Below, piece by piece: positions 1,646 through 25,549 of a stretch of DNA of 64,000 nt. The first letter of the stretch is position 1. Each line of letters opens with the position of its first letter. Under the pieces are notes generated by a model. It saw only the letters and a list, made by a program, of their open reading frames with translations. It did not search any database and was not told where the DNA came from. The translations under genes and the position numbers were made by a program. Origin of the DNA: Limonium bicolor (lineage: Eukaryota > Streptophyta > Magnoliopsida > Caryophyllales > Plumbaginaceae); contig CM041779.1 of NCBI GenBank assembly GCA_023374045.1, positions 148,243,485 to 148,307,484 on the forward strand, read 5' to 3'.

Positions 1646-4600
1646 TGTAACACCCCTCTCCACAATCACGTAATAATCTCTCACGTAGCAATAAATAAAA
1701 CGTCTTACAGCGGAAGAATAAATAATAAACCAATACTCACTCGGGTGTCACCGGCCATTACTCACCCATGCGAGCAACGAAGCCAAACTACATCCAACTT
1801 CCAACATAACAAACTGCTAACCGCCGTGATAACGAGAAAACTCCTATACATCATACTAAGTCCATAAACCATAACATCGATAAGTGAGCGTCTACCCAAT
1901 CCCAAATATACATAATCTTACCATAATACAATTCACCATCTTCATTGCCATATAGACAAACTCCATGCGCAATAATAATTAAAGTAAAACTCCAATTACC
2001 CTGTTCCCGCTCTTCGGCTTCGACAATAATCATCAACCTGTAATGGTGTAGTATCAGCGATAGACGCTTAGTATGCCGGGCCTGGACCCTAATGGTCACT
2101 TAGTCATTTTAACCATCTTATTATTAGATCGGTTTCATGCTTTACCATTTTACAGTTATAATCAATACTGTAATATAAATGTATAAAATATATAATCATC
2201 CATCCAAATATCCATAAACATTTAACCATCCATCCAATCCAAACATTCATATAATATCTCAAACAACATTTGTATATCGAACGTATCGAGTAATAACAAT
2301 ATAATGTACAATCACCGTAGCGTATACCATCCTTTATTAATTTAATTTAATTTGGCCTTCAAGGCCCCATCCATATGTACAATGTACAATCGCCGTAGCG
2401 GACAGTTTCCATAGTTAATAATGTACAATGTACATTCGCCGTGGCGTACGGTGTTCATATTTAATTTACCTTAGCCTTGTAGGCTCCATCCAACCATGTT
2501 TAATTATTACCAGTTGGGCGTCATGTTAGGACAATCCGATATCCTCACCATGGACAGTAGTCCTCCCGTACACACAAAGGTGCTCATTTCGCCAGAGGTC
2601 CGGAGGCCCCTGACTCTCTTATGTCTCGTAAGACGTCCATATAAAAGGCCGTAGCCACCTGACCCACGATCCAGTTTGGGCTCATTGGGTATAACATGGA
2701 GCGGAACCCAATCGGGTACCCCTCAGTGATCACAACTACGCAACCAAGTAGTTCGTAAACTACCGGGATTCCTCACCTCAACTCATACCATCTCTCTCTC
2801 ATAATGTTTAAGATCTGCTCTTAGTCTTATGGAGAATAATTATTAATTAGCTGCCCAATGGGTCTCACGCATACCTAGAAGTAATCTAGGTTATATTCAT
2901 GTTCGAGATCCATGCTCTAGAGACCGACAATGTCGTGACTCGTCCCTAAGTGTTTTACTTAGGTCACCATATACTTAATATTAATACTATGGTATTATAT
3001 CAAGTAACCGTCATATCACATTAACGTATATGTATGTTTATATAAGTCGATCTATAGTCGACGTAGTGTTAGTCCGTGGGACGCTCGTGCATAAATAATA
3101 ATGCAGTAACACTTAATCACATGTATCCACACACATAACACCAAGTTATATCAACCAAATCCGAGCCCAAGGAGCTTCCTTAGGACAACTCGGATCAAAC
3201 CCCTTTACATCCGTTCACCAAGACCTAGGATGCGCAGTGTAGTCCACTAGCTCGTCAAGCGTCCTCGTCTGAAGTATAATCTAAACGGTATTAAAACTAT
3301 AAGTCAGTCTCCATGACTAACTACATCCGGTATTTCCGAATAACAAGTAACCCCGACAGTTCATCCCTGTTTTCTACAGTTATTTGTTACGGGTTTCTAA
3401 ACCGGTCGGCTTTGTTACTAAAACTCGTATGTCAAAACATTTCGACTGTTAAGTTTAATTCGTTGTATTTCTTTTAATCTTATCCACCGTTAAATGTAGG
3501 TGTATAACCTATAGTTGCATGTATGCATGCATGACTATATTATATTGTATTATTTTTTTCATATTGTATCATTATCCCGCCATCCATTATAATACATTGT
3601 ATTATATCATCCATTATCTTTAGCAAATAATATTTGCATCCAAAACTCATAACTTATAGTTTATAAACTATTTCCATGTAATAACCACCACCATTATATT
3701 ATATGGTTTCCAACCATATTATATATTCATCCTTATGTACATTATTCTTGTGTATGTATATATTTACCACGTAGGTAAATTTCGTGAGTTTAATAAACTC
3801 TTACATTATATGTTACATTTTATCATCTTATATTAGATGATTATTCCCATTAGTTGTATTATATTATACAACTTATATTAAGATTATTATCCTAATATTA
3901 TGTAACATTTTATGTTGTATAATTACAACTCCTAAGGTTTATTCAATAAATACCTTAGTTTATAAATCCTATTTATTTATAGTTTGTCACATTATTTAAT
4001 GTGAATATCCTTACTTATATTAACCCCAACTAAACCATATAATTGTTATAACATTTATAACATTGTAGACCATAGTCTAAAATTCATTTTCCAACTCTTA
4101 TTAATTCGGTACAGCCCTTGAATTTATTTAAATTCTATTTTGACCACATAACATTATGTAATGTTATACCATATTCTAATATCATTTGATATGATATTTT
4201 TATTTCCTTTAATTTATAACCTATAGTTATTATACAAACTATTATATATTGCGGCATAGGCATATATATTAAACCTTATTCTTTTCCATAAACCATAGTT
4301 TCCTTTATTTACAAAATCACCCCATTATTAACACCATGTTATATATACCATTTAATATAACATTTAACCTTAATATAAATATAACCTATGGTTATATATC
4401 CATTAAATTTCCGAACAGACCCACCAAATTTCTATAATTGCCATTTGGCCCAATTTATAACATATAGTTTAATATTTCATTAAAACTATATATTAACATA
4501 TATCTTAATAAATACTCTTATATTATTCTAAAAATCACCAAATTTCACCAAAGGGTTATAATTACCTTATTAACCCATATACTTTTGGTATTTACCATTC

Positions 4601-6956
4601 CACCATCTATATTTCTCCAAAGTGTCATAATGACATAATAACTATATATTATTCATATATAGTTTATTTTAATTCCGAAAACAACCCAATAAATTCCTAA
4701 AAATTCCTAATAGCCCATGGGTGTTTATAATACCATTATACACCCTTTATTTTCGGAAATAACATATTCACCACATATGTTATAAAATTGTTACTCTTAA
4801 ATACTCATCTTATAATAAAACCTTAAATAAGTTATCTAACTTATTTAATTTGGTCAAAACCTACCATATGGTCAAGGTTGGCCTCCTTAATATTTCCTTG
4901 ACCATTAATTCATAATAATTACGGTTTGCACCCATACTTTTTAGAAATTACCATTTAACCCCAAAACTTTATATAATCTTATAAACTAAACCCTTTTTAA
5001 CTTCTAATTTTCGGCCTTATTATTATAAAGCCCCCAAATTTAATTTAATTACACCTAAGACCCCATTTCTTTTCAGTAATGCATTTTCACCACTTAAACT
5101 TAATTAAAAGCTTACAAATGCATAAATAAAATGGCCTAAAGTACATGGCCTTATTACAAACATTGGCTTATAAAATAAATTACACATAAATGTCCAAAAA
5201 TGCATTAAACTTTCGGCCCTCACCATATCTTTCCATTAATTACCAATTTTCCACATAATGTCTTAAATTTGACAATTATGCTTGTTTAATTAGTTATAAA
5301 ATTTACCAAACCATTCCTTAATCACCTAAGGTCAAAATAAGACCTTAAATACTTGTTCACTCACGGCATAATATATATAAATATGTATAAACACATATTA
5401 ATGTACCAAGTTAAGGTTTAAGTGATTTATACCTTGTTTTTGCTTAGATAAAGCCTTGTTTGGTTCGGCCAGCTGAGGAATAAAATTTCCACAGCTTCTT
5501 TTACATGTTTTCAAACAGAAACCAAGGCATAGTTAGTCTCCAAGCAAGATCTAACCATAAGAAGTGTTTTAATGTATATTTCAAGGTAAGATTTACCATA
5601 GAATACCAAGGTGAGTATGGATTGACTTCTACCTAAATTTACAGAAGCAAAAGAGCATCAAAAGGTCTACTAAACCAAGGCTTAAAACTGACATAACTTT
5701 GATTCGAAGATGGCTAATTTTTACCTTGTTTAAAATGCCAAAAATGGTGTTTTTGGCTTGGATCTGGCTATACCTTGAAGCTCTTGATAGATCCATGGAT
5801 GGAAGTGGTTGAAGCTTAGATCCACCGAAAGGAGAAAGATTTGTGAAGAAATTGAACATAAAATGACTAATTAAGCTAACCTATGTATCAAAATGTTCTT
5901 CTCTGTTCTTGGTGACTTACCCACGACTTGGAGAAGCCAAATAGAGGATAGAGAGGCCTTGAGTCGTAGGGAAGCAAGGCAAATGAGAAAGGTAGGTCAA
6001 ATTTGCCTTAATACGCACTTTTGACTTGTTTAATGTATTTTGGTGTTTGGTGACTCACTAAAGGGGGTGGCATCGATTATTGGAGGGGCTGGAGCCTCTC
6101 AAGTGGAGCCTCCCACGTTTTTTGAAGCCTTAGTCAATCAAATAAGGAGCCAAGGTTGAATATTCACATTATTGTATTGTAAAGGCAAAAGTGGTCCCTT
6201 AAAACATGGAAATGTGTTGGAGCTTGTCCCTTGTGTTGAAAGTGACGAATTTTAAGCTACTTTGCTTGTGGCTGTCGACCTCATGTGGTCCAAGGGGTCA
6301 AACTTTGACCTCTTGACCATTCTTAGTCAATGTTGACTCAAACGGACCCCTTTCTAGGGTTTTATTAATATTTTAATATTAAATTTGTAAAAATTTGTAA
6401 ATTTCTGGAATTAAATTCCTAATATGATAGAATATGATATATTATCATATTTAAAGTTAATTATAACCTTTAAGCCCATTAAAAACCAATTTAGAAGGCA
6501 ATTACACAAAAACGTGCTTTAAGGAGTTTTAGCGCACATTTTGTGTTGCAAGGTGTTTCTGAGCTTGGTTTTCTTTGAGAACGGTTTTGTTGTGTTACTT
6601 ACATGATATTTGATCATGGTATCCAATTTATATCATTTAGAGGTCATTAGACCTTTAAGGTTTCTTTAGAGCACATTCTTGCCCTACTTGACCTTGAAGC
6701 ATGAAAATGCTTGTTCTTTGTGTTGGAGTGTTGTCCAACGATTGTAATATGTTTAGTTATATGTTATAATGCTTAGGACAAAGTTTTAGGTCCTAAGAAG
6801 TTCATTTGGGTACTTATTTACCCTAAACAGTCAAAGGGTGCAACAACTTGCTTTGTGTTGACCACTGTTGTTCTCAGTTGACTTTTAAGGCATGTTTAGG
6901 CCTTAATCAATGTGATTAGATATTTAATCCATGTTTTATTAGTTTGGGGTATTTCA
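1646..6956 (-). repeat. Element 1 3' LTR (5.3 kb)
   Basis: The LTR is 5311 bp, bounded by TGTAACACCCC and GGGGTATTTCA as read on the plus strand. It is nearly collinear with 11744-17266 but lacks a 192-bp block that the other copy has between two AGATCCA repeats. It is very AT-rich and has no convincing gene. Between about 2300 and 2455 the motif ATGTACAATCGCCGTAGCGTAC recurs three times in imperfect form, a possible regulatory repeat. Confidence 0.9.
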
Positions 6957-6958
6957 AT

Positions 6959-6972
6959 CTACCCCCCTTAAA
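6959..6972 (-). other. Element 1 polypurine tract
   Basis: On the minus strand the sequence reads TTAAGGGGGGTAGAT directly before the 3' LTR start TGAAATACCCC. This is the position and composition expected for plus-strand priming in plant Ty3/gypsy elements, and it matches the tract of element 2. Confidence 0.8.
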
Positions 6973-7409
6973 AAGACTTCGTCCCGAAGTCGCTTAATCA
7001 AATAGGTAAGTATATAAATGTATAACTACCCATTATTCACATAATGTATATCTATGTGATATATCATTTACACACATCGTATTGCGCCTATACATCACAT
7101 AGCCATCACTTTGTGGCGTTAGTTCAATCATATGGATAAGGTGATCCATCAGCACCATCATTTCCTATCAGTTCTACAAACCCCTGACAACCTCCCCGAG
7201 GTGTCCATAACATACCATCGTTCCAAATTCCATATCTAATGATTCATTTTGTATCTAGGCGATACCATATGTAATCATTCTATAAAGCAATATGAATACA
7301 TATCACAAATAGCATAAGAAAAGTGTTACACACATGGGTATAAACACAACATTCAAACAAGTATCTCATAAATACACATACAAGTGCACATCATACATAA
7401 CAAAACAAC

Positions 7410-7570
7410 AACGTACGCCCCGCGTACCAAACATAACCAACAAAACCAATTCACTGTATGCCATGCATACTAAACAATTCACTATATGCCATGCATACTA
7501 AACAAACAACCTCGTATGCCCCGCACACCACCAATTCTTTGTATGCAATGCATACAGAACAAACAAAACT
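7410..7570. repeat. Short palindromic tandem repeats in element 1
   Basis: The stretch repeats a roughly 30-bp unit built around a palindromic core such as GTATGCCATGCATAC followed by TAAACAA. Four to five diverged copies are visible. Function is unknown. Confidence 0.6.
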
Positions 7571-9018
7571 TAGTGCACACACGTGCAAGCCAAGATGGCT
7601 CTACCCCCCTTAAAAAGGGTTACGCCCCCGTACCCCACAAGTATACACAGCCGCTCAACAAGGAGCGCTGGATACTTGGCTCTCATAGAGTTTACCACCT
7701 CGTGGATTATCCTCATATCATAGAGGCGGGTATGACTCTAGCCCTTCTGGGCTCCACAATATAAAGGGTGAGGCACTGAACTAGTTGTGCTCTCTCCCAG
7801 TTCTTTCTAATGGGCCCACTCGCTCTGTATGAGTTGCAGACCCATGAACATAGGCTCAGTTTGCCTCTTCCATTTGTGTATCCTCTCATTTGGATCACTA
7901 GCATACATGCGTGTGTCTTCACTCACTGATATTCAGCTTGAGGTATAATATGACATTGGCTACTGTTAGTACTTAGTGCTCTTTGCACTTGTCTTGTAAT
8001 ACTTAGACGTACCAGCCTATATGTCCACAAAGATGATGTTTGTCATCCATGTCTCCTGGTGGTTTTGTTCCGTAGTAACACACTGTTGTAGTTCTCTTTT
8101 TTTTTACACACTCGTGTTGATATCCATTGCATCTTTCCGTATTCCCACTAGATTAATAACTGCACAAGTGCAATACCAAAACACTCAGTCATATAGAGTG
8201 CAGAGGCGTAAACTCTCAGCAGCCAATATCTAATGAGTCAAACAGATAAGATGTGCGAATTATCCTGTGAGTGGTACATTCCAAATCCACTGTTCCTTGC
8301 TTAAGGTATCTGCTACTATATAGCTTTGTCTTTTATCCTTGCGTAATCACGCGTTTATGTCCAAATCATATAGTAGATTTCCTCTGGATTGCAAAAGTTT
8401 GCTCGATCCTTAAGAGGGTTCTACATATTTTCATCCATAATGGGTTTCCATGTTTCTATCCTTAGTGTTCACGTCCTTAAAAGGTTTCCTTGTCTTCACT
8501 GTATACTGTCTACTGCTCTCTGATGAAGGTTCATGATTTCTTTAGCCCGTTGGTTCAATGGCGGCTCTTCTCGTCCATCTTTGAGGTAATCTGCCTTACT
8601 GTCCGTAGTATGGAGTTGACTACTTCTCGTGTTCCTAACACTACTTGTCTACTTGCATGGGGTACCGTACTGATACATTACTACTTACCCGACTAACTCA
8701 TAAATAAGTCTGTCAGGCCCACATGCTCCTAACGGAGTGCGGTCGTCCCATGTCTCGTTTAGTAAACTGGTAATGTCTGTCACACATGTATTGTGAAGTA
8801 TTCTGTTGTCAATCTCCCTCTGATGGATATCCTATTTTCTTTTCTCTTCTTCTTCCTTTTTCTTTTGTTTAATAGTTCATGGTATCAGTTATCTAGTAAT
8901 AAGTGCTATTGCCCTGGTGGCATCAGTGGTAATTCGTGTCATTAACCGGCATTATTTAGCTCGGTGTAAGTAAAATCTGTGCTATATTTAGCAAACTTGG
9001 TTCTCCTAATTCGATCTC

Positions 9019-9476
9019 GTTGAGTGCACACATATTCCTTTTCTCCCTATTTCTCATGGTCATATCTCATCCATGGTTCATATTCATTCCCTCACCCGTT
9101 TAATTGGATGTATTGCAGATTGCATAATAGCTTGAGCAACTTGGCTCTCCACTTCCCAACCATCCTCACTGACGGTGGTGCATCTACAAAGGGTATGCTT
9201 GTCCATAAGGACTTAACATTCATCACTGGTAGTGATTAGCATTAAACGTTGAGTGCACACATATTCCTTTTCTCCCTGTTTCTCATGGTCATATCTCATC
9301 CATGGTTCATATTCATTCCCTCATCCGTTTAATTGGATGTATTGCAGATTGCATAATAGCTTGAGCAACTTGGCTCTCCACTTCCCAACCATCCTCACTG
9401 ACGGTGGTGCATCTACAAACGGTATGCTTGTCCATAAGGACTAAACTTCATCACTGGTAGTGATTAGCATTAAATG
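9019..9476. repeat. 229-bp tandem duplication in element 1
   Basis: Two nearly identical head-to-tail copies start with GTTGAGTGCACAC at 9019 and 9248. Only a few substitutions separate them, so the duplication is young relative to the surrounding decayed sequence. Open frames in each copy are translations of the same repeat and are not treated as genes. Confidence 0.85.
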
Positions 9477-9739
9477 CGGGTATACACTGATGGTATTTGG
9501 CTAATAAGCCCTGTCTGAAAATTCTCGAACAATCACTGGTGTGGTTTTACAATCACATGGATGTATAGTTTCTCCAGTTGCAGTGGTTGGACTAACGGTC
9601 CTTCCAAAGTTGCATAGGTTTCTAATCTCAGGTTTGTATGAAAACGTTTGAAAAACATTTTTTTTATACATATAATAAAAGACTAAAAAGTAGTAGTTGT
9701 TGCAGTTGCATTTGCAGTTGCTGTTGCTTTGCTGTTGCT

Positions 9740-9816
9740 GCACTTGCTCTCAAGTGCGCAGGCAGATGGAAATTTCAGTGGTGTGATTGTCATAGCGCTT
9801 GCAATAGCAAGTGCGC
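9740..9816 (-). other. Two GCACTTG-type hairpins in element 1
   Basis: Inverted repeats at 9740-9759 and 9795-9816 share the stem half GCGCACTTG. They correspond to the single hairpin GCACTTGCCACGGCAAGTGC in elements 2 (41898-41917) and 4 (26266-26285). They lie in the non-coding region just 3' of gag. A role as an RNA packaging or dimerisation signal is speculation. Confidence 0.5.
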
Positions 9817-10111
9817 CATGCAGATGGAAATTCTGGTTCATAATCACGGTCTCATTGACTCTGTGTCGTTGAGTATGGGCTACATGATAATGTAAGCTTT
9901 AACATCCTGTTCATATATATAATCTGTCAATGTTTCAAGGTTACTCGTATCGAGTTCACAAAACTAGTTCCCAAAAGTCATACACAAAAAGGCAAGTGGT
10001 CAGTGACACACTCCCACATATTTATAACATAGCTCCTTCTAACATCCAAGGTAAGTACATAACAAAGTAAGCAAAAGTCTTCCACCAGCGGTCTCACGGA
10101 GTTCAGGGTAC

Positions 10112-11512
10112 TCATGCCCTATCCACTCCCTTGCCTTTATAGGCTCCAGCATCAGTAGATGTCTGGCCATCCTGACCGCCTCGTGGTACTCTAGATCCTC
10201 CAACTGAGGTCTTCTGAGTATTCCTTGGTGGCCTGTAGTTACGGCTCTCAGGGTTCATCCAGCACTCGAACTCCCGGTGGCCCTCTTTCTTGCAACAGCG
10301 ACACTCAACTTTGCGGCCATTGCAGTCGACCCCAGGATGGTCTTTCCCACAACGCTTGCAATAGAAATGGCGCTGGGGCTGTCCGGTGCCTAATGGTAGT
10401 ATTTAGTTTAAGTTAGTATCTGATGATATAAAGGTTAAGGTCACAATTCAATTTAAGAGGTAGGTGTTCTCACCCTTAGGAGGTGCAGATCTCAGAGGCT
10501 GAGCATCTATAGCTGGGCCGGTCAACCGAAGGACGGGTTCTTTCCCCTTTGCTCCCTGGTGACCCTGCTGCCCTTTCTTCTGAAAGAATTTCCTGTTCAA
10601 GGTTTCGGGTCAGCATTCATAAGGTATTCAATATGATAAGTAGTTTAGAATGGGATAAATCCTTACTTTCCCTTCTTCTGGCCATCGCCTGGAGATGCTC
10701 CTCCACCCTCAGACTCTCCCTCAGGGTTCTTTCTCTTCTTTGTCCCGAGAGTCTCTTCCTGAGTCTGGAGCATTAGCTCCATCCTCGAGGCAGCGTCATA
10801 ACACTCCTGGAATCTCATTGGTAAGTTCTCACAAAGTTAATCGGTAATGTAATAGGTAAAGAATTTATGGCTTTCATGTTAATACCAGGATGGTAGTGTA
10901 GAGGGTAGCACCCATCGCCATCTGGATGCGAAACAATAGTCCTCCCTGGAACTTCTCGATCTTAACGGTCTCTGAGTATTCAACACCGGGGATGAAGTCC
11001 AGCAGACCAATGAATCGAGCGTAGTACTCATCCACGGTCAGACCTCCCTGAGACAGTGTCTCGAACTCATGGCGCTTCTTCTGCTTAAGGTGGGCTGGGT
11101 AGTACTTCCCTCTCAGTAACTCTACAAAGGCAGCCCACGAAAAGTCGGGCGTAGCCAGGTGATGGTCCTTGACCAACCTCCACCAAGTGCTGGCTGCATC
11201 CTTCAGATGGAAAGCAGCAATGACAACCTTCTGGTTGGCAGGTACTTGTAAAGCTTCATATGCCTTCTCATGTTCAACAATAAATCGCTCTAAGGCTACT
11301 GGGTCTGGTTCCCCAGAATATGTAGGTGGTCGGGTCTCGGTAACTGACTTAAGCCAGTTCGTTTCCCTGGGCTGTGGCGGGTGGGCTGGTGCTCCTCCAA
11401 TTTGAGTACCCAGTTGTGCAAGAACAGCAGCAATTGTCTCTGCAACTCCTGGATTCGTGGGGTCACCGCCTCCACCTCTACCAGTACCACGCCCTCTAGT
11501 TCCCCCAGACAT
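10112..11512 (-). CDS. gag: Gag polyprotein of element 1, four exons
   Basis: Spliced Gag of 387 residues. Exons: 11512-10886, 10806-10667, 10592-10474, 10389-10112; junction phases 0, 2 and 1 all agree, and the frame stays open to TGA at 10114-10112. Residues 1-20 are Gly/Arg-rich. Residues about 72-195 form a retrotransposon gag (PF03732-type) capsid domain with the hallmark ASTWW at 107-111 and a KYYPA segment. Exons 2 and 3 encode a charged Lys/Glu/Gly-rich linker. Exon 4 carries two zinc knuckles, C306-C309-H313-C318 (CX2CX3HX4C) and C325-C328-H333-C338 (CX2CX4HX4C). Gag packages genomic RNA into cytoplasmic virus-like particles. The ATG at 11512 follows a 231-nt leader after the LTR and is directly preceded by ACTACAG, itself a possible 3' splice site. 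Without splicing the frame would stop after exon 1 and lose both knuckles. The exon structure is read from the sequence; expression is inferred. Confidence 0.82.
10390..10473 (-). other. gag intron 3 (84 bp)
   Basis: The 5' site is GTGAGA and the 3' site is ACCATTAG. A perfect TACTAAC branch-site motif lies at 10412-10418, about 25 nt before the acceptor. The phase-1 junction rebuilds a Gly codon and leads directly into the zinc-knuckle exon. Confidence 0.8.
10593..10666 (-). other. gag intron 2 (74 bp)
   Basis: The 5' site is GTAAGG, close to consensus. The 3' site is TTGAACAG, with a CTGAC branch-like motif about 18 nt upstream (10609-10613). The phase-2 junction rebuilds a Lys codon in a Lys-rich run. 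Confidence 0.78.
10807..10885 (-). other. gag intron 1 (79 bp)
   Basis: The intron reads GTATTAAC at its 5' end and GATTCCAG at its 3' end, is AT-rich, and separates codon-complete exons (phase 0) between ...YTTIL and ECYDAA.... It contains an in-frame stop (TGA at 10876-10874), so read-through would truncate Gag at 212 residues. Confidence 0.75.
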
Positions 11513-11711
11513 CTGTAGTGCAGTATGTCACATAAATACTCGGTAATTTACCGTACACAACCAATAGATATTGAATTGCCTTAAGGCTAACCTATCACGC
11601 AATTTGCGTTACTAGACACAATATCTTTTAAGACGAGTCGTCTCGTACCTCACAAACGTTTCCCATAATTTCCCAAGTCCTATGCTCACTGTCTTAGCCT
11701 ATATCCTCGTC

Positions 11712-11735
11712 ATCAGAGCGGTACTCCGCTCTGAT
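11712..11735 (-). promoter_or_regulatory. Hairpin overlapping the primer-binding site of element 1
   Basis: Two perfect 10-bp arms, ATCAGAGCGG and CCGCTCTGAT, enclose a 4-nt loop (AGTA on the element strand). One arm contains most of the tRNA primer site, so folding would compete with primer annealing. The same fold exists in element 2 with the pair next to the loop changed from G-C to A-T. Confidence 0.65.
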
Positions 11736-11739
11736 ACCA
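11728..11739 (-). other. Primer-binding site (tRNA-iMet) of element 1
   Basis: On the minus strand TGGTATCAGAGC begins four bases after the LTR end. This 12-mer is the standard complement of the 3' end of plant initiator tRNA-Met and fixes the element's orientation. Confidence 0.92.
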
Positions 11740-11743
11740 CTTT

Positions 11744-14700
11744 TGTAACACCCCTCTCCACAATCACGTAATAATCTCTCACGTAGCAATAAATAAAACG
11801 TCTTACAGCGGAAGAATAAATAATAAACCAATACTCACTCGGGTGTCACCGGCCATTACTCGCCCATGCGAGCAACGAAGCCAAACTACATCCAACTTCC
11901 AACATAACAAACTGCTAACCGCCGTGATAACGAGAAAACTCCTATACATCATACTAAGTCCATAAACCATAACATCGACAAGTGAGCGTCTACCCAATCC
12001 CAAATATACATAATCTTACCATAATACAATTCACCATCTTCATTGCCATATAGACAAACTCCATGCGCAGTAATAATTAAAGTAAAACTCCAATTACCCT
12101 GTTCCCGCTCTTCGCTCTCGGCTTCGACAATAATCATCAACCTGTAATGGTGTAGTATCAGCGATAGACGCTGAGTATGCCGGGCCTGGACCCTAATGGT
12201 CACTTAGTCATTTTAACCATCTTATTATTAGATCGGTTTCATGCTTTACCATTTTACAGTTATAATCAATACTGTAATATAAATGTATAAAATACATAAT
12301 CATCCATCCAAATATCCATAAACATTTAACCATCCATCCAATCCAAACATTCATTTAATATCTCAAACAACATTTGTATATCGAACGTATCGAGTAATAA
12401 CAATATAATGTACAATGTACAATCACCGTAGCGTATACCATCCTTTATTAATTTAATTTAATTTGGCCTTCAAGGCCCCATCCATATGTACAATGTACAA
12501 TCGTCGTAGCGTACAGTTTCCATAGTTAATAATGTACAATGTACATTCGCCGTGGCGTACGGTGTTCATATTTAATTTACCTTAGCCTTGTAGGCTCCAT
12601 CCAACCATGTTTAATTGTTACCAGTTGGGCGTCATGTTAGGACAACCCGATATCCTCACCATGGACAGTAGTCCTCCCGTACACACAAAGGTGCTCATTT
12701 TGCCAGAGGTCCGGAGGCCCCTGACTCTCTTATGTCTCGTAAGACGTCCATATAAAAGGCCGTAGCCACCTGACCCACGATCCAGTTTGGGCTCGTTGGG
12801 TATAACCTGGAGCGGAACCCAATCGGGTACCCCTCAGTGATCACAACTGCGCAACCAAGTAGTTCGTAAACTACCGGGATTCCTCACCTCAACTCATACC
12901 ATCTCTCTCTCATAATGTTTAAGATCTGCTCTTAGTCTTATGGAGAATAATTATTAATTAGCTGCCCAATGGGTCTCACGCATACCTAGAAGTAATCTAG
13001 GTTATATTCATGTTCGAGATCCATGCTCTAGAGACCGACAATGTCGTGACTCGTCCCTAAGTGTTTTACTTAGGTCACCATATACTTAATATTAATACTA
13101 TGGTATTATATCAAGTAACCGTCATGTCATCACATTAACGTATATGTATGTTTATATAAGTCGATCTATAGTCGACGTAGTGTTAGTCCCGTGGGACGAT
13201 CGTGCATAAATAAATAATGCAGTAACACTTAATCACATACATGTATCCACACACATAACACACAAGTTATATCAACCAAATCCGAGCCAAGGAGCTTCCT
13301 TAGGACAACTCGGATCAAACCCCTTTACATACCGTTCACCAAGACCTAGGATGCGCAGTGTAGTCCACTAGCTCGTCAAGCGTCCTCGTCTGAAGTATAA
13401 TCTAAACGGTATTAAAACCATAAGTCAGTCTCCATGACTAACTACATCCGGTATTTCCGAATAACAAGTAACCCCGACAGTTCATCCCTGTTTTCTACAG
13501 TTATTTGTTACGGGTTTATCTAAACCGGTCGGCTTTGTTACTAAAACTCGTATGTCAAAAACATTTCGACTGTTAAGTTTAATTCGTTGTATTTCTTTTA
13601 ATCTTATCCACCATTAAATGTAGGTGTAACCTATAGTTGCATGTATGCATGCATGACTATATTATATTGTATTATTTTTTTCATATTGTATCATTATCCC
13701 GCCATCCATTATAATACATTGTATTATATCATCCATTATCTTTAGCAAATAATATTTGCATCCAAAAACTCATAACTTATAGTTTATAAACTATTTCCAT
13801 GTAATAACCACCACCATTATATTAAATGGTTTCCAACCATATTATATATTCATCCTTATGTACATTATTCTTGTGTATGTATATATTTACCACGTAGGTA
13901 AATTTCGTGAGTTTAATAAACTCTTACATTATATGTTACATTTTATCATCTTATATTAGATGATTATTCCCATTAGTTGTATTATATTATACAACTTATA
14001 TTAAGATTATTATCCTAATATTATGTAACATTTTATGTTGTATAATTACAACTCCTAAGGTTTATTCAATAAATACCTTAGTTTATAAATCCTATTTATT
14101 TATAGTTTGTCACATTATTTAATGTGAATATCCTTACTTATATTAACCCCAACTAAACCATATAATTGTTATAACATTTATAACATTGTAGACCATAGTC
14201 TAAAATTCATTTTCCAACTCTTATTAATTCGGTACAGCCCTTGAATTTATTTAAATTCTATTTTGACCACATAACATTATGTAATGTTATACCATATTCT
14301 AATATCATTTGATATGATATTTTTATTTCCTTTAATTTATAACCTATAGTTTTTATACAAAACTATTATATATTGCCGCATAGGCATATATATTAAACCT
14401 TATTCTTTTCCATAAACCATAGTTTCCTTTATTTACAAAATCACCCCATTATTAACACCATGTTATATATACCATTTAATATAACATTTTAACCTTAATA
14501 TAAATATAACCTATGGTTATATATCCATTAAATTTCCGAACAGACCCACCAAATTTCTATAATTGCCATTTGGCCCAATTTATAACATATAGTTTAATAT
14601 TTCATTAAAACTATATATTATACATATATCTTAATAAATACTCTTATATTATTCTAAAAATCACCAAATTTCACCAAAGGGTTATAATTACCTTATTAAC

Positions 14701-17266
14701 CCATATACTTTTGGTATTTACCATTCCACCATCTATATTTCTCCAAAGTGTCATAATGACATAATAACTATATATTATTCATATATAGTTTATTTTAATT
14801 CCGAAAACAACCCAATAAATTCCTAAAAATTCCTAATAGCCCATGGGTGTTTATAATACCATTATACACCCTTTATTTTCGGAAATAACATATTCACCAC
14901 ATATGTTATAAAATTGTTACTCTTAAATACTCATCTTATAATAAAACCTTAAATAAGTTATCTAACTTATTTAATTTGGTCAAAACCTACCATATGGTCA
15001 AGGTTGGCCTCCTTAATATTTCCTTGACCATTAATTCATAATAATTACGGTTTGCACCCATACTTTTTAGAAATTACCATTTAACCCCAAAACTTTATAT
15101 AATCTTATAAACTAAACCCTTTTTAACTTCTAATTTTCGGCCTTATTATTATAAAGCCCCCAAATTTAATTTAATTACACCTAAGACCCCATTTCTTTTC
15201 GGTAATGCATTTTCACCGCTTAAACTTAATTAAAAGCTTACAAATGCATAAATAAAATGGCCTAGAGTACATGGCCTTATTACAAACATTGGCTTATAAA
15301 ATAAATTACACATAAATGTCCAAAAATGCATTAAACTTTCGGCCCTCACCATATCTTTCCATTAATTACCAATTTTCCACATAATGTCTTAAATTTGACA
15401 ATTATGCTTGTTTAATTAGTTATAAAATTTACCAAACCATTCCTTAATCACCTAAGGTCAAAATAAGACCTTAAATACTTGTTCACTCATGGCACAATTT
15501 ATATAAATATGTATAAACACATATTAATGTACCAAGTGAAGGTTTAAGTGATTTATACCTTGTTTTTGCTTAGATAAAGCCTTGTTTGGTTTGGCCAGCT
15601 TAGGAATAAAATTTCCACAGCTTCTTTTACATATTTTCAAACAGAAACCAAGGCATAGTTAGTCTCCAAGCAAGATCTAACCATAAGAAGTGTTTTAATG
15701 TATATTTCAAGGTAAGATTTACCTTAGAATACCAAGGTGAGTTGGATTGACTTCGACCTAAATTTACAGAAGCAAAAGAGCATCAAAAGGTCTACAAAAC
15801 CAAGGCTTAAAACTGACATAACTTAGATTCGAAGATGGCTAATTTTTACCTTGTTTAAAATGCAAAAAATGGTGTTTTTTGCTTGGATCTGGCTATACCT
15901 TGAAGCTCTTGATAGATCCACTGAATAAGTATGTTAAGAAGAATATTATAAGGCTATTAGAACAGGTTTTACAACCGGATCTAAAGAGAATCAAAAGATA
16001 AGTGCTTAAAGCACATTTTTGTACCTTAAGAACAAGATTGGGTTTCTCCACCTTCTTCCCTTGTTATGGCCGAGATTCCTCCTTCATTTAACTCCAAAAC
16101 ACCCTAGATCCATGGATGGAAGTGGTTGAAGCTTAGATCCACCGAAAGGAGAAAGATTTGGAAGAAATTGAACATAAAATGACTAATTAAGCTTACCTAT
16201 GTATCAAAATGTTCTTCTTTGTTCTTGGAGACTTACCCACGACTTGTAGAATCCAAAGAGAGGATAGAGAGGCCTTGAGTCATTGGGAAGCAAGGCAAAT
16301 GAGAAAGGTAGGTCAAATTTGCCTTAATACTCACTTTTGACTTATTTAATGTATTTTGGTGTTTGGTGACTCACTAGAGGGGGTCGCATCGATTATTGGA
16401 GGGGCTGGAGCCTCTCAAGTGGAGCCTCCCACGTTTTTTGAAGCCTTAGTCAATCAAATAAGGAGCCAAGGTTGAATATTCACATTATTGTATTGTAAAG
16501 GCAAAAGTGGTCCCTTAAAACATGGAAATGTGTTGGAGCTTGTCCCTTGTGTTGAAAGTGACGAATTTTAAGCTCCTTTGCTTGTGGCTGTCGACCTCAT
16601 GTGGTCCAAGGGGTCAAACTTTGACCTCTTGACCATTCTTAGTCAATGTTGACTCAAACGGGCCCCCTTCTAGGGTTTTATTAATATTTTAATATTAAAT
16701 TTGTAAAATTTGTAAATTTCTGTAATTAAATTCCTAATATATATAATATTATTATCATATTTAAAGGTAATTATAACCTTTAAGCCCATTAAAAACCAAT
16801 TTAGAAGGCAATTACACAAAAATGTGCTTTAAGGAGTTTTAGCGCACATTTTGTGTTGCAAGGTGTTTCTGAGCTTGGTTTTCTTTGAGAACGGTTATTT
16901 TGTGTTCCTTACATGATATTTGATCATGTATCTAATTTTATATCATTTAGAGGTCATTAGACCATTAAGGTTTCCTTAGAGCACATTCTTGCCCTACTTG
17001 ACCTTGAAGCATGAAAATGCTTGTTCTTTGTGTTGGAGTGTTGTCCAACGATTGTAATATGTTTAGTTATATGTTATAATGCTTAGGACAAAGTTTTAGG
17101 TCCTAAGAAGTTCATTTTGGTACTTATTTACCCTAAACAGTCAAAGGGTGCAACAACTTGCTTTGTGTTGACCACTGTTGTTCTCAGTTCACTTTTAAGG
17201 CATGTTTAGGCCTTAATCAATGTGATTAGATATTTAATCCATGTTTTATTAGTTTGGGGTATTTCT
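11744..17266 (-). repeat. Element 1 5' LTR (5.5 kb)
   Basis: The LTR is 5523 bp, bounded by TGTAACACCCC and GGGGTATTTCT on the plus strand; the final base is T where the other LTR has A. It is near-identical to 1646-6956. It retains a block at 15914-16105 that the 3' LTR has lost. No separate gene is recognised inside it. Confidence 0.9.
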
Positions 17267-17271
17267 GAGCT

Positions 17272-20229
17272 TGATTTGCTTAATAAAATACCTAAGGAGC
17301 CAATGGTGAATGACCTAGTAAAATGCTCTCAAGGAAACTATTAAAGGGCATATGTGTTGTTGTATGTAATTACAGGTCAAAGGCATTATTTATGTGGGGA
17401 AATTCAGTGTTTATGGTTTATGCAATTTAAGGGCCTAAGAGCCATGTTATTTAAGGGCCTAAGTGCCAAGCAATTTAAATTATGCACTATATTGTGATGT
17501 AGTGTAAATTTGGTGAAGTTTTTTGTGTGAGAAGGTTCTTGAAGGATTTAGGTGTTCTGAATGTTTAATGGTGAAAACTATGTGTTTTGGAGTGTTGATG
17601 TGCTAGGAGAACCCATGGCAAAATTTGGATAATGTATAAGAAGTTTTATGTGTTTAAATGAGTTATGGTGGACTAGGAAATGTGAGGAATGAATGAATGT
17701 TTCACTAGGGAAGGAAACATGTGTTAAGGTGTTCTAGAGTGCTACAAGGATTTAGGCAATATCTTGGAAGTTCTAGAAAGCCAATGGGTGTTTTTGGGAT
17801 GTTCGAAAATCTTGGAGAAGTTTGTTTAAGGTTTAGGTAATGTTGATGTACAAGGAGGGAATGATGTTTACGTAAGGAATTGAGAAAGGAGTTTTAAGAA
17901 GTTGTGAAAAGAAGATTTGGTTAAGAGAAGATTCTTGGTGATGTTTGATGGTGAGGAAACATTTTGGTATAGTGGTCATTTTAGGTGAAACACCACATAG
18001 AAAACCAAATGGAAAATGTTACAAGTGTTAAGAGATTTTGTAAGGAAATTGGGTAACAAGTTGGATAATGTTTTTGAATCAAAGTGATATTTTGGTTAGA
18101 ATATGCCTAAGTACATGTATGAAGTTTGGGTAAACAATGGGTGAAGAGAACTAGTTGAACAAGGCTTGAAAATGCTAAATATGGAAATCTGTAGCTTTGG
18201 TCCGGGACTTGGTTCCAGGGTTAAGTCTTGGACCATACATAAAAAAAAAGGGCCGAGAGTGCATCAATGACTTGGTCCGGGACTTGGGGCCGGTACAAGG
18301 TCCCAGACCAGTACCATTTTTCACCCCGAGAGTTGCTTAAGTGTTGGTCAGGGACTTAAGGTAAGGACCAAGTTCCGGACCACTCTAAAAATGTTGTTTA
18401 AGGTATGAAAATGATGTGTAATGATGGGGATTGATAGATAATGATGTTATAAGGTTTTTTAGGACATGTTAGGTGAGTTATAATGACAATTAAGAGGGTG
18501 AAAAGTGGTAGTAAAATGTGAGAGTAAAACAAGTTAAAAATGTGAAGCTATTTAACTAGTTAACGGGGTTAACCATGGTCATTCGACGTTACACAAACAT
18601 GTTACCCCCAATGTTAATAAAGCGACTTTAATGTTACCAGTTGTTCGAGAATTGTTTGAGGAACATAAGTGGACATGGTAGAGTGGACTCCGGTGACAGG
18701 TATGGTTTTCTTGCAACCTGTGTCCTACCGGATTACACCAGCTTGTATGCCAATGTGTTTTTCTGTATGTTTGCCACGTTATATGATAAATCATGAAACG
18801 AGTTTACAGTCATTGTTGTTGTTGTGTGTTTGCGTACCGATACCGGTAACCTCGAATGCGTATGAAAGGCTAGTTAACCAATATTAGGTAAGCGTAAGAG
18901 AACGGTATCCGATAATAACGTTTCCAACCTAAGGAACGTTCTAACCACGGCTATGCGTGAGTTAGTTATGTGTTGCTTGTGCGTGTTAGTATGTTCACTA
19001 CTCTTGTGTGTGTCTAACTAGACCTAACCACCTATTTGTAAATTAATGTGCTAAGTCCAATAATGGAATTTCTAACAAGTGCTAATGGGGAAAGTGAGGA
19101 GTTCGGTCTGTTCCGGCCACGCGTGTGAGTATGGGGGTCATTGTCATTTCAGGTTCGATCCTCTCTGTATGTTATGGTTGTTTTCCCATTGGGATCCAAT
19201 CTCCCCTTTAGCTTAACCAAAGCTATTTTAATGACTCACGTCGGGCCACAGGCGCATACTATGTTTGTTCGGTGTGCTTGGATTACTATATCCGATGCAC
19301 CTTGGGGTTAAGTTATCCGTTCATTTAACGAGACGGTAACGAGTTATGTAACGAGCTTATCATGAGTTTGGCAACATTCTCTAGGCTCTACAAGTGAACT
19401 AATTATGTTTGGGTCGGTTCCTAAAGAGAACCGTTCCCGTTATGTTATGTGTTATTGATGTACGGCAATTCTTATTGCAATGTGATGTTATATGTTGTTA
19501 AAATGTGGAGTATGTGTATCATGGATATGAATCCCAGTTTATAATAAGAGGCGTTTAAGGATAACCCGATTATTGGGTAAGTGTCGTCTATTAAGGAAAT
19601 AGCTCCATTATAGGAGAAACACTCTAGGGTTAAGGAACTCAGCGAGTGAGTTATTAAGTATTGATGTGTTGTCTGTTTTGTTGAGCCCATTTTTGTGGAA
19701 TGTAATGTGTTGTGTGTTATAGTTTACATGCATGATTTAAATATAATCAACCGCATGCTAAGACGACAATTAGTTGTGCGTGGCCCGGTAGCATGCGGGC
19801 TGCGGGATTACCATACCAGCAAAGGTGTTGAGCCCCTTGGGGGCCACCCTTTCTTTCCTATTTTTCAGGTACAAGGAGCTGGAAGCCGTTCGAGAGTAGG
19901 GTGGGGTAGTTGTCTACACATGGGTAGCCGTTTAAATTGTGTATGTATAGTAGGTGTAGTAAGACCGAGGTTGTTATCGGCATTAGTTTGTGAATACTCG
20001 GTACAGTTGGAATGTATATGTATGTTGTTGTTGTTGTTAATGGAAAGAGATAGTAATGTGTAGTCGCTCGGGAATCTAGTCCATCAGACCGATACAATGT
20101 AAATGTATTAGCCTTGTTAGCCACGTGGGTGGTTAACGGCGTGTAACACCATTGGGTTAAGTAATGTGATGAGTTAAGTTTTCTGCTGCAATGTGTTGTT
20201 AAGTGTATGGTTGTAGTTGGGGTGTTACA
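17272..20229 (+). repeat. Element 4 5' LTR, right part
   Basis: This continues the LTR begun at 137 after the 1646-17271 interruption. It ends with GGGGTGTTACA at 20229, directly before an iMet primer site. At 18199-18385 it has three ~73-bp units with GGTCCGGGAC...GGACC palindromes, matching the position of the hairpin arrays in the LTRs of elements 2 and 3. Short open frames inside are not conserved between relatives and are not treated as genes. Confidence 0.85.
18199..18385 (+). repeat. Hairpin array in element 4 LTR
   Basis: Three imperfect units of about 73 bp each begin with GGTCCGGGACTTGG or a close variant and close with GGACC. Each can fold back on itself. The architecture parallels the arrays of elements 2 and 3 although the primary sequence differs. 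Confidence 0.6.
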
Positions 20230-20692
20230 AAAAGTGGTATCAGAGCCAAGTATCTCTCTGATGACTGAAATACCGAGTTTAGGAAGTACCGAGTTAGGAT
20301 TTTAGTACTTTGGGTTTAGGGTTGAGTGATAGCGTGAGAGATACGCTAGTTAGGAATTGCCAGCATGTACTGGAAACCTACTACATCCATCCCGCCCTCC
20401 ACAATCCCTGTTTTATAACTCGGGGAAAGAACGCCAGAGAGATGAAAGTCCTCTCTTACTTGGGAATACCCGACCTGGCTGTTACTAAGTACCTCGGTAA
20501 GTACGGAGAACCTGTCATACGGTAGATCCCGAAAACTGGGAATCCCGGAGACGGTTTCAATCTGAACAATGTTAACCGCATTTCATAGCGAAGAATGAAG
20601 AATCTTGTGCATCGAAAAATGGAATTTCCGGTAACCTGGGTCAACATGCCGAGCAGTCGGGAACAACCAGCTTGCAATGCACCAACCGTGCA
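20230..20692 (+). other. Element 4 leader and internal region, part 1 (non-coding)
   Basis: The stretch starts with the iMet primer site TGGTATCAGAGC (20235-20246) and a weakened version of the hairpin over it (20239-20262). It is visibly homologous to the start of element 2's internal region (about 40930-41300), including a shared GACGCCAGAGAGA segment. No gag or pol frame is seen. It is interrupted at 20693 by a CACTA transposon and resumes at 25893. Confidence 0.75.
20235..20246 (+). other. Primer-binding site (tRNA-iMet) of element 4
   Basis: TGGTATCAGAGC lies five bases after the LTR end GGGGTGTTACA, identical to the primer sites of elements 1 and 2. Confidence 0.9.
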
Positions 20693-20960
20693 CACTAGTA
20701 GAAAAAATACCTATAGTGTCGGTTCCAAACCCCCCTGTGGCGTCGGTTTTAGAACCGTGGCCTAGCAGGCTGACACTACAGGTTAACATCTGGGGCGTCG
20801 GTTTGTGGAAGCGAGGCTTCAGATGTGTATTATGGTGTCGGTTTTCAGAACCGACGCTTAAGGGTGTTCAAAACCGACACTTTAGAGTCAGACTATGAGT
20901 CAGTTTTACAATCCTAAGGTGTCGGTTTTTTTAAAAAACCGACACCTAAGGGGATGTTTT
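20693..20960. repeat. CACTA left terminal and subterminal repeats
   Basis: Contains the terminal inverted repeat and about six GTGTCGGTTT or GCGTCGGTTT motifs in both orientations, some as short hairpins such as GGTGTCGGTTTT pairing with AAAACCGACACC around 20920-20950. Confidence 0.85.
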
Positions 20961-21628
20961 TTTTAATATGCATCCATTTCGTATGAGTTCAACCTGTTAA
21001 TAGCAATTGTATACACAACCTGGTAATGACATTTAGTCACAATACAACCTGCACATGACATTCATTTACAAAACATACAATCTTAATACTCGCTTTTATA
21101 TAAGTTGTGTGTTAATGCCAACTTCATTACAACACCTCTTTGCGGAGGCAAGCCAAAACAAAAGAATTCACAACTGGTCATCCTAAGTAAAAAAAAACAT
21201 TACAATACCTTGGAAGAATGATGTTCACCCAGAACAAAAGAATTCACAACTGGTCATCCTAAGTAGTAGTAAAAGTAATTAAAAGATGTTCACCCAGAAT
21301 CTGCCAAATTAGCTTGCTCCGACATTAGAGATTAGTCTGTTGAGCAAAACATGCTGATGTCGGCACTTCTGCTGGAATTGGCTTCATTCAGTTTCTCATC
21401 ATGGCAGACGGCAGAGTATCATGCCACAAAGATGATAGACAAAGTATTTGTAATTAGTACAGAGTAACGTGAACAAAAAAGGAAGCAAAGAAATAAAATG
21501 AAACGAGAAGCAGAACTGCTACAAGAGAACTCAACCAAAAATCCTCAGAGACAGCATACTTGAACATAAAAGGTTCTTTGGATATGAAAAAAAAAAGTGA
21601 AATGGGTGCAACTAGACGAATGCAATAC

Positions 21629-21725
21629 CTTCCCAATAAGATGCAGTGACGCAGGCCAGCCCGCAGAAACAGCACTTCGCAAACAGTTAGGCTGCTCTTT
21701 GTCATCAAGCAGTGCAGATATATAC
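21629..21725 (-). pseudogene. Captured exon-like block A in CACTA
   Basis: Read on the minus strand, a 97-bp block is bounded by a TTGCCAG acceptor and a GTATTG donor. It codes in one frame for 32 residues beginning YISALLDDKEQPNC. The composition and the splice sites look like an exon taken from a host gene. The source gene is not recognised. It could belong to the same captured gene as blocks B and C or to a different one. Confidence 0.5.
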
Positions 21726-22637
21726 CTGGCAACAGGAAAGAACAAATAAAATAGTTCCTTTCAGTTATGCTCTTTCCCAACTATCTTGTTGCTGTCTCCC
21801 CAAGGAATCTGGCATTTTATATGATTGCATTGAACATTTTTTCTGCCACAGAAGGATTCAAAGTAAAACATTTGTTGACCGAGCCCATGCATAATGAACT
21901 AAAAAAAATAGATTTTACAGAACGGCCAGACTTACTCCTAATATGATCAAGTGTAACCTAACATCAATCAGATGAAAAATAACCATGGAACACGAGTAAA
22001 AAAGCAAAAATCTGAACCAGCAGAACCATTATTATAATACATTGGCAGAGATAAGTCATTATATATGTTAATCAAGCTGTAAATTCACCATTTTAAACAG
22101 TCCACACAATGCTCAGTTTGTCACCATTTTAGATAGTGTAACAAAAGCAAAGTAGCAGCCATAAACAATGTATAACCGTGCAATTCATCTTCACAGGGAA
22201 AAGTCAAAGAAAAGATGGATCACCTTTATGGATCACAGACCTCAGACACATCTTCTAATTCAGATATAAACAGGACACATGTTGTGGAAATATGATCAGG
22301 TTTGTCATCTTTACAGCTTAAGAAAGTTAATTGTTCTAACTACATCCAGCAAGAAAATCAAGAAATAGTATCTGAAGTTCAAATACAAGACAACTTACTT
22401 GACCAAAGACTTAGAAATCATTATTCTTTACCTAAGGCATCCCCATTAAAATACATATAAGCGTAGTACCACCAACCAGACAGCCAAGGAAGCAATCCAA
22501 AGTACTTACTAATACAGGATACAAGTACTGCAACGAGATTAAGACAATACATGGAGTAATGTCTGAAAAGCATATAGAAACATAAAGCATCATTAAAATG
22601 CAAACGTTTTGTGTGCCCAGCATTGGGTAAAAATTAC

Positions 22638-22770
22638 CTTTCAAATGCTGCAGATCAGTTCTATTTTTCACATAATGGTTCTGATGATAATGCATTTCTC
22701 TGGCCAGAAGTTTGTGCTTCAGATGAAGATCTCCCAAAGCTGATCTCAAGCTCTTAACAACAAATGAAAC
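22638..22770 (-). pseudogene. Captured exon-like block C in CACTA (coiled-coil, BRE1/HUB-like?)
   Basis: This 133-bp block on the minus strand follows an ATGGTAG acceptor and ends at GTAATT. It codes for 44 residues, VSFVVKSLRSALGDLHLKHK followed by LLAREMHYHQ..., rich in Lys, His and Leu and probably helical. The pattern LHLKHK-LARE-----KN---L--LKG recalls the coiled coil of plant HUB1/HUB2 (BRE1-type histone H2B ubiquitin ligases), but this is a weak resemblance by eye. It joins in phase with block B upstream. Confidence 0.5.
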
Positions 22771-22967
22771 CTACCATTTAAATAAAGAGTGTTATCACAA
22801 CAATATTGGCACCCAAACAGAAAAAACAATGGTACTGCATAATTAATATTTCTTCACCCATTTTCAGTTTCTACTGGATCCTGTAAAAGAATGCAACTTC
22901 CCTTTAATTAATCCATGAAATAAACTTAAAAATTGACAAATGGTACTTGACTCGTAAATGTACCCAC

Positions 22968-23024
22968 CTTAACAGAACCAGAAGAGAATGGATCCAAGAG
23001 GTTAACTACATCAATATCATAGTC
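22968..23024 (-). pseudogene. Captured exon-like block B in CACTA
   Basis: A 57-bp block on the minus strand between a TTTGCAG acceptor and a GTGGGT donor codes for 19 residues, DYDIDVVNLLDPFSSGSVK. Its length is a multiple of three and it splices in phase to block C (22770-22638). The source is unrecognised. The joint evidence of splice sites and open frame supports captured genic sequence. Confidence 0.5.
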
Positions 23025-23940
23025 CTGCAAACATGATTATTATTGAGCCTTTTTGAGACATACATGTAAAATCAATGTATGGTAGTGTAAGAAAATTGAT
23101 AAATGCAGCGTTATCCTTTGATAAATGGTGCTATAATGATCACCAAGTGTACATCATTTCCTTGGTTATCTGTACCTAGGTGTAATATGAAGACAACGTT
23201 TCCCTTTTCAAATTGTTAATAATCAAATCAACAAAAATGTGTATGATCAGTACGCAACGCAAGAAACTCACTCGAGTAAGATGTATCCCAAGAACTACTA
23301 ACTAATAGGATATACAAATACAAACATACCCCTAAATAACTAAAACTTGTGATATAAAAGTTGGAAAGTACAAACAAGAGATAACTGAAGTAAAACAGAA
23401 AACAAAAACTAAAATGGAAAGCTGAAAGTAAAAGCAAAAAGTAGTGTTAGTAATAGATTTGTATATTCAAGTTGTATTGTCATTTAAAATTCTAGTGAAT
23501 GTGGTATATCCTGTGTAACATGTATATCAATAGTATGGGGCGTCAAACCAGTTAATAATCAAACATTAATCAAAGCCAAGTTGAACACATTATAATCAGA
23601 ATACAAGTAGAAGAGCTGTTGTCTTCAAAAATTTCTAGGAAACTGTCAAGCAGCAGCTGAATAAAGTAGTTGTTGCAGATTGTAATAGGTGCAGGAACAT
23701 TAGTCAGAAACTAGCATTTCTAACAGAACTTAGCAGTGCAAAATGAAGCTCTAGGTGCCTTTAATCTCTTGGGAGAAAAGTGTATACAGTTTTTGTCAGA
23801 AAGAAGATCACATATCTAAGGTTTATTCAATATAGTAACATGAAAGGATCACACAGTAAGAATCTTCTGTTAGATGTAGATATAAGACTATAGCCACTGT
23901 ACCTGTCACCAGACGTCAACTTAGCACAACTGAGTTGTTT

Positions 23941-24040
23941 GGGACTATTAAGCTCAGAGTAAGTTTGTCCTCGTCATCGCTATTTAGATATATTCGGGAC
24001 TATTCAGCTCAGAGTATATTTGCCCTCATCATCGCTGAGC
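23941..24040. repeat. ~55-bp duplication inside CACTA
   Basis: GGGACTATT-AGCTCAGAGTA-TTTG-CCTC-TCATCGCT occurs twice, at about 23941 and 23996. It is a simple local duplication with no gene. Confidence 0.6.
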
Positions 24041-24430
24041 GGGCAAGTGTAGACTCTCATATTTCACTTGCGAAGTTATGGTACAACTTAACCTATAACT
24101 ACCACGACTACCACAATAGGCCTACCCTTTATGCGTTATCTGTTCTTATCATCATTTTTGTAATCGGGCCAAGATCGTTCGGGTAGATCCTAAGGTGGGG
24201 TGGCCGTTATAGGTTAGTCCGCTCCTCACTAACACAAATGATGGGTCCATACACTTATCCACCATTGTATGGGCAATTTACTAATCTCAACATGTAATTC
24301 AGTTCCTGAAAATAGCACCGACAAATTAGAGCAAATCGAATCAAACAGGGATGACAACCAACTCAAGATCCAATTCAACTGATTGAAGTTCCAAACAGGG
24401 ACGGTAATCCATCTATCCAATTCAAGTCTC

Positions 24431-25500: not shown

Positions 25501-25549
25501 GAAGCTCGGCGAACACTCAAATAGATCGGGAAAGGTTTAGCAAATATAA

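Follow-up and report, generated by a model that had tools for sequence, protein, structure and literature searches.

A gag-only LTR retroelement of Limonium bicolor with three introns inside gag and intron-minus copies in the host genome

Introns are expected to vanish from retroelements because each cycle passes through RNA, and plant LTR retroelements are described in a 2025 review as generally intronless, with Ogre and EVADE as notable exceptions (PMC12786077). In Ogre, which belongs to the Tat lineage of Ty3 elements, an intron is reported to be spliced from a subset of transcripts (PMC6317226). The Ty1/copia elements BARE1 and EVADE are described as producing spliced short-GAG RNAs that serve as a Gag messenger separate from the genomic RNA (PMC3735527, PMC12786077), and the BARE report states that amplifying DNA copies of the spliced RNA from genomic DNA was not possible (PMC3735527). 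Two introns are described as being spliced from the element RNA of sunflower Tyran and Varan (PMC7730604). For the TR-GAG elements, transposition of one member is reported to have been shown in Arabidopsis, and the same account describes members with GAG as a single ORF (PMC8704663). The TR-GAG elements of triticale are given as Ty1/copia with mostly one intron; a single intron is reported for 13 of 15 GAG-RNAs, a two-intron category exists, and the lone Ty3 GAG-RNA is listed with none (PMC7765848). In the titles and abstract openings that our searches of open-licence literature listed, we recognized no Ty3 gag described with several introns. The family described here, represented by element 1 of the window (the whole 64,000-nucleotide stretch of DNA that was analyzed), has retained three introns inside its sole recognizable gene while becoming abundant.

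The split gag gene and its element

The Ty3-type gag of element 1 is read on the minus strand from 11512 to 10112, and its four exons together comprise 1164 nt, namely, 387 codons and a stop codon (Table 1). A sequence-only reading of the window had proposed three GT-AG introns splitting a 387-residue gag with phases that match across the junctions; we found this layout as proposed, with blocks of 79, 74, and 84 bp, GT-AG ends, and phases 0, 2, and 1. The branch motifs that it had pointed out are also present; elsewhere in the family, the first two letters of TACTAAC vary and CTAAC is kept. The blocks thus carry the marks of spliceosomal (U2-type) introns, that is, GT-AG ends, an A+T-rich interior, and a branch-type motif. 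Their G+C content is 0.310 to 0.351 versus 0.526 to 0.554 in the exons, and no exon window of equal length was as A+T-rich as the respective intron (0 of 852, 0 of 872, and 0 of 832).

Table 1 Features of element 1 and its gag gene, in positions of the window
Feature	Position	Strand	Remarks
Element 1, complete gag-only LTR retrotransposon	1646..17266	minus	LTR pair and 5-bp target duplication; 15.6 kb
5′ LTR	11744..17266	minus	about 5.5 kb
Primer binding site (PBS)	11728..11739	minus	TGGTATCAGAGC; common to element 2 and L083
Hairpin overlapping the PBS	11712..11735	minus	10 bp, perfect; recurs across family copies
gag exon 1 (E1)	10886..11512	minus	627 nt, 209 codons, capsid part; dN/dS 0.116 in the spliced frame (66 gap-free copies)
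Intron 1	10807..10885	minus	79 nt, phase 0; exactly missing from L039, L040, L041, L042, and L044
gag exon 2 (E2)	10667..10806	minus	140 nt; dN/dS 0.349 in the spliced frame (60 gap-free copies)
Intron 2	10593..10666	minus	74 nt, phase 2; exactly missing from L018, L019, L039, L040, and L042
gag exon 3 (E3)	10474..10592	minus	119 nt; dN/dS 0.226 in the spliced frame (62 gap-free copies)
Intron 3	10390..10473	minus	84 nt, phase 1, CTAAC branch-type motif; exactly missing from L039
gag exon 4 (E4)	10112..10389	minus	278 nt including the stop codon; two CCHC knuckles (by eye); dN/dS 0.273 in the spliced frame (54 gap-free copies)
Internal region without recognizable protein domain	6957..10111	minus	3.2 kb; six-frame Pfam scan
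Polypurine tract (PPT)	6957..6972	minus	adjoins the 3′ LTR; block common to element 2
3′ LTR	1646..6956	minus	about 5.3 kb

E1 matched the Pfam families Retrotrans_gag (PF03732, 3.4e-17) and Ty3_capsid (PF19259, 4.3e-11). E2 to E4 matched no Pfam family at E ≤ 1; therefore, the knuckles of E4, CX2CX3HX4C and CX2CX4HX4C, were identified by eye. Searches of protein databases with E1 gave 0 of 457 candidates at E ≤ 1e-5 and 0 of 1376 at E ≤ 1, PDB sequences gave none at E ≤ 1, and seven pattern matches in IMG/VR included no relative. Rfam gave nothing at the gathering threshold, ARAGORN found no tRNA, and an AlphaFold model of E1 alone was uninformative (mean pLDDT 42.4).

Scored with approximate weight matrices, the donors of introns 1 to 3 ranked 3, 1, and 4 among 61 GTs, and the acceptors ranked 3, 7, and 17 among 130 AGs. 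When frame-keeping GT-AG pairs of about 60 to 132 nt were enumerated piece by piece, each proposed intron was the best-scoring pair (first of 5, of 2, and of 1, respectively). In the chance controls, some frame-keeping GT-AG pair was found in 62 to 95% of shuffled or random inserts (1236–1900 of 2000 trials per intron), and a pair that scored equally well or better was found in 90, 60, and 131 of 2000 trials with shuffled introns 1 to 3 and in 45, 163, and 134 of 2000 trials with random non-coding DNA, corresponding to 2.3 to 8.2% per intron over both controls. Because chance pairs are common in such inserts, GT-AG ends and phase are weak evidence alone: the features from which the sequence-only reading had argued are there, but as proof they are suggestive and not conclusive, and the single-copy evidence for the introns is only moderately convincing. 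The ease with which such pairs arise favors a different account, in which the blocks are recent insertions or decay within an ordinary continuous gag and have their GT-AG ends by chance.

Element 1 is flanked by the target duplication GAGCT at 1641–1645 and 17267–17271 (by eye), and the outermost base of its 5′ LTR, 17266, is changed. Over 5300 sites, its LTRs differ by a K2P distance of 1.31%, and an indel of 192 bp separates them further. The PBS is presumably of the initiator-Met tRNA type, and the hairpin overlapping it keeps at least 9 of its 10 pairs (G-T allowed) in 61 of 63 occurrences among family copies. A six-frame Pfam scan of the internal region, with X at stops, gave one match (E 0.016), which was under its cut-off. 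Gag is thus the only recognizable gene of element 1, which has no recognizable pol and is non-autonomous.

The window also contains element 2 (36781–50723), which is complete, with the target duplication CTTAC and LTRs of about 4.15 kb at a K2P distance of 1.35%. None of the gag pieces matched it, and the three plus-strand frames of its interior gave no Pfam domain; what it has in common with element 1 is the PBS region, the PPT, and three non-coding blocks in collinear order. Its PBS hairpin (40939–40962, plus strand) is kept, both sides carrying a change from G-C to A-T. A non-coding motif of 54 nt, located at 8160–8213 (minus strand) and 44428–44481 (plus strand), has two differences between the gag-bearing and the gag-less element, a similarity that far exceeds the general similarity of elements 1 and 2. 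Its fold was no better than those of shuffles (z 0.43 and −0.78), and for this reason we do not claim it as an RNA structure. At 20050–20483, a third related element has left an LTR end, a PBS whose hairpin is decayed, and a leader; no Pfam domain was found in the three plus-strand frames of 20240–29000. The segment 26628–27464, in which several frames are open on either strand and which the low-complexity filter removed from the self-comparison, is probably a simple tandem repeat.

Family copies: exact intron losses and selection

A search of the host genome (2.92-Gb assembly, 2686 contigs) with the E1 protein yielded 62,094 first-look candidates, of which the best 150 were scored; these had 93 to 100% identity and matched from residue 1–4 to residue 206–209. 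In a separate PF03732 search of the host genome, for which 150 loci were scored, eight loci (L001–L008) had no exon match at E ≤ 0.01. We read 74 copies, including the window's own, namely, rows 1 to 71 of the best 150 and three copies chosen for long open frames (L040–L042). All three introns are present in 66 of them, intron 3 is part-deleted in one, and at least one intron is missing in seven. The ranking by E1 similarity depresses dN/dS for E1 and could skew the frequency of losses in this sample. The expectation that intron positions would be conserved among relatives held in the copies read.

The seven copies differ in what they lack: all three introns are missing from L039, introns 1 and 2 from L040 and L042, intron 1 from L041 and L044, and intron 2 from L018 and L019. 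These amount to 11 losses (five at the first junction, five at the second, and one at the third), and in all 11 the exons abut exactly as predicted; seven control patterns, off by 3 letters, were found 0 times in the 74 copies. Of the rank-ordered rows 1 to 71, four (L018, L019, L039, and L044) have lost one intron or more. L039 carries one 392-codon frame, as the only one of the 150 scored copies. Throughout the genome, a 24-mer of the spliced E1/E2 junction occurred at 71 places with up to two mismatches (24 of them exact), and the reversed 24-mer occurred at none. The places that we read among these 71 comprise five family copies and six that belong to a pol-bearing relative, which leaves 60 others.

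Purifying selection acts on the exons in the spliced frame. The sequence-only reading had suggested a test for exon Ka/Ks below 1, and in the family copies dN/dS was indeed 0.116 to 0.349 in this frame, as calculated pairwise and pooled over related pairs without confidence limits, with E2 to E4 not directly selected in the ranking. The wrong-frame values were 0.53 to 1.87 over all exons (1.07 and 0.91 for E2, 0.62 and 1.24 for E3, and 1.11 and 0.53 for E4). Since the genomic frame of E2 differs from that of E1, selection on E2 speaks for the spliced product. Stops were carried by 19 of 66 gap-free copies in E1, 10 of 60 in E2, 9 of 62 in E3, and 6 of 54 in E4. Frameshifting indels were found at 2.9 to 3.5 per kb in the introns versus 0.15 to 1.75 per kb in the exons. 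Conservation in introns 1 to 3 was 1.000, 0.969, and 0.978 for the GT and 0.977, 0.969, and 0.971 for the AG, compared with 0.924, 0.888, and 0.921 for all other intron letters. In intron 3, conservation falls to 0.849 over the final four letters (versus 0.921 for the remainder), with the AG itself preserved.

Recent insertion into, or decay of, a continuous gag is difficult to reconcile with three blocks shared by 66 of 74 copies, with exact losses in varied combinations, with selection in the spliced frame, and with a distant relative that has two similar gaps in matching places. The counter-case named by the sequence-only reading, random insertions into an otherwise unbroken frame, was not seen: copies lacking introns miss exactly the predicted ones. 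We regard this account as already refuted by the exact losses, which together with the spliced-frame selection rule it out, and we leave it next to no probability.

Judging from these genomic copies, it is very likely that the element RNA is spliced and is occasionally copied back into DNA in spliced form. In L039 to L042, a block running across the LTR end, PBS, and gag is 89.4 to 91.3% identical to element 1, a continuity that LTR-type reverse transcription of spliced RNA would explain better than retrocopying by LINEs. The intron-minus copies might instead reflect gene conversion by spliced cDNA and not new insertions of spliced genomes, and the single-intron losses (L018, L019, L041, and L044) could be conversion tracts; we consider this improbable, and because it still requires spliced cDNA, it leaves the splicing of element RNA untouched. 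On an E1 tree of the 74 rows, the losses need five changes, at least three of which are forced by well-supported branches, and they show some clustering, with a count this low in 8 of 500 shuffles. L018, L019, and L044 form one supported clade inside which different introns were lost, in a tree whose backbone is weak. A copy on another chromosome (L009), possibly an independent insertion, is 99.4% identical over 3.6 kb and keeps all three introns.

A pol-bearing relative and the possible roles of two RNAs

The six places with the spliced-junction variant CACTACCATTCAAGAGTGTTATGA constitute a separate family (L083 and L085–L089) whose members are mutually 85 to 98% identical. The E1 part of L083 shows 69% amino acid identity over 169 residues, and the matched pieces in the other copies show 26 to 70%. 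Downstream of gag, L083 and the adjoining L084 contain an AlkB-type domain, protease, reverse transcriptase, RNase H, integrase, and, under the cut-off, a chromodomain (PF00385 in L084, 7.1e-5, 23.1 bits versus a cut-off of 25.1). The 2OG-Fe(II) oxygenase (AlkB-type) domain of L083 (PF13532, 1.2e-39) lies in a 189-codon frame between gag and protease (minus strand, nt 3058–3624). Both loci are decayed, with stops and frameshifts breaking the coding in places, and L083 has its LTR end, PBS, and PBS hairpin in common with element 1.

The relative has a gap of about 76 to 78 nt with a GTAAGA donor at the same place as intron 2, including a CTAAC motif in L083, L085, L086, and L088 but not in L089. 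A second gap, with a GTAAGG donor, is at the same place as intron 3; its AG lies at 72 nt in L085 and L086 and is changed in L083 and L088 (two of the six copies). Neither donor pattern matched in L087, and only that of intron 2 matched in L089. Intron 1 is absent from all six copies, an absence that is not informative for the whole relative family because all of them were found by the spliced-junction pattern. Their shared places suggest that introns 2 and 3 are old enough to occur in the pol-bearing relative as well. These gaps also bear on the possibility that the gag descends from a host gene, itself a domesticated retroelement sequence that had acquired introns before an element recaptured it. 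Transcribed LTR-less gag-coding loci are reported from sunflower (PMC9784723), which shows that plants have loci of this sort; however, the relative has its similar gaps 2 and 3 in a gag that stands beside AlkB-type, protease, reverse transcriptase, and integrase domains, which assigns the gaps to the retroelement lineage, and we consider recapture very unlikely.

We consider it highly probable that, in this gag-only element, the split gag yields full Gag from spliced RNA and that the element spreads mainly as unspliced RNA. The host spliceosome would remove the three gag introns in living cells, and a minority of RNAs that are fully or partially spliced may be reverse transcribed, which would give the intron-minus copies. 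Unspliced RNA would be packaged as the usual template because most copies read keep all three introns. The coexistence of spliced Gag mRNA and unspliced genomic RNA, as the sequence-only reading had envisaged, is indirectly supported by the 66 of 74 copies that keep the introns and the seven that resemble products of spliced RNA. Protease, reverse transcriptase, and integrase would be supplied in trans, most plausibly by L083/L084-like elements, since these carry the hairpin seen at the PBS of element 1 and two gaps that look like its introns.

The simplest idea for a benefit of the introns is a separation of roles, in which the genome RNA would not simultaneously be the full Gag messenger. 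All 69 copies that bear intron 1 have an in-frame stop within it, at its fourth codon in 54. The unspliced RNA meets this stop just inside intron 1 and therefore could encode only a capsid piece without knuckles. In yeast Ty1, truncated Gag limits copy number. The introns of the present family might likewise be both a switch and a record: the knuckle-less capsid piece from the unspliced genome RNA would limit copy number, the spliced RNA would make full Gag, and each slip of spliced RNA into particles would leave a datable intron-minus copy, recording failures of template choice. We offer this as a speculation and consider it unlikely.

Alternatively, the introns may be passive passengers that are efficiently spliced, confer no benefit, and persist only because the packaged RNA is produced or exported along a path that bypasses splicing, as in barley BARE, for which separate translated and packaged RNA pools are described (PMC3735527). 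The pairwise intron distance of 0.089 to 0.112 is no slower than expected of free sequence; it is lower than the synonymous distance of 0.16 to 0.20 used for comparison, which is possibly raised by the G+C-rich exons, but the lower intron distance might instead mean constraint. Introns 2 and 3 are seemingly old, and intron-minus copies arose at least about three times, yet they have not replaced the intron-bearing ones among the copies read, both of which weigh against mere passengers. We give this account a substantial chance, somewhat short of even.

Significance and comparison with known systems

The finding is stronger than first claimed: the three-intron gag belongs to an abundant retroelement in which it is the sole recognizable gene, and naturally occurring DNA copies that lack introns bear witness to it. 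The exact intron-minus copies make it testable from DNA alone how strictly messenger and genome RNA are separated and how often this separation fails. Annotation that expects an unbroken gag would likely label such elements dead or non-coding.

Element 1 resembles the TR-GAG elements in that two LTRs flank gag alone and Pol is needed in trans, but its gag lies in four exons with stops between them instead of in a single ORF. The elements of the first TR-GAG description were reportedly short, under 4 kb, whereas element 1 measures 15.6 kb. It differs from the triticale TR-GAG elements by its Ty3-type gag, its three introns, and its 5.5-kb LTRs. LARD elements have large LTRs and a non-coding interior. 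Element 2 fits this description, and element 1 shares with it LTRs of over 4 kb and a long non-coding interior part; however, element 1 encodes Gag, and the gag of its family is under purifying selection. Chromoviruses (Tekay and kin) have a pol with a chromodomain, whereas element 1 has no recognizable pol. Orchid Ty3/gypsy elements with an AlkB-type domain are described as resembling Ogre/Tat, using a tRNA-Arg PBS and encoding gag-pol in one ORF (PMC9289625). L083 also has a 2OG-Fe(II) oxygenase domain, but its PBS is TGGTATCAGAGC, and L084 has a weak chromodomain match.

The introns themselves are also placed differently. In BARE1 and EVADE, the intron is found where gag ends or beyond that point and cuts off pol, whereas those of element 1 lie inside gag. 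The Ogre intron parts GAG-PROT from RT-RH-INT; element 1 has three introns inside gag, and no reverse transcriptase was found in it. The short isoforms of Tyran and Varan encode Gag without capsid, whereas splicing in element 1 would complete Gag. The plant retroelement introns described in the reports cited here occur singly or in pairs, or else are located between genes or downstream of them; measured against these, three introns within a Ty3 gag are a new arrangement.
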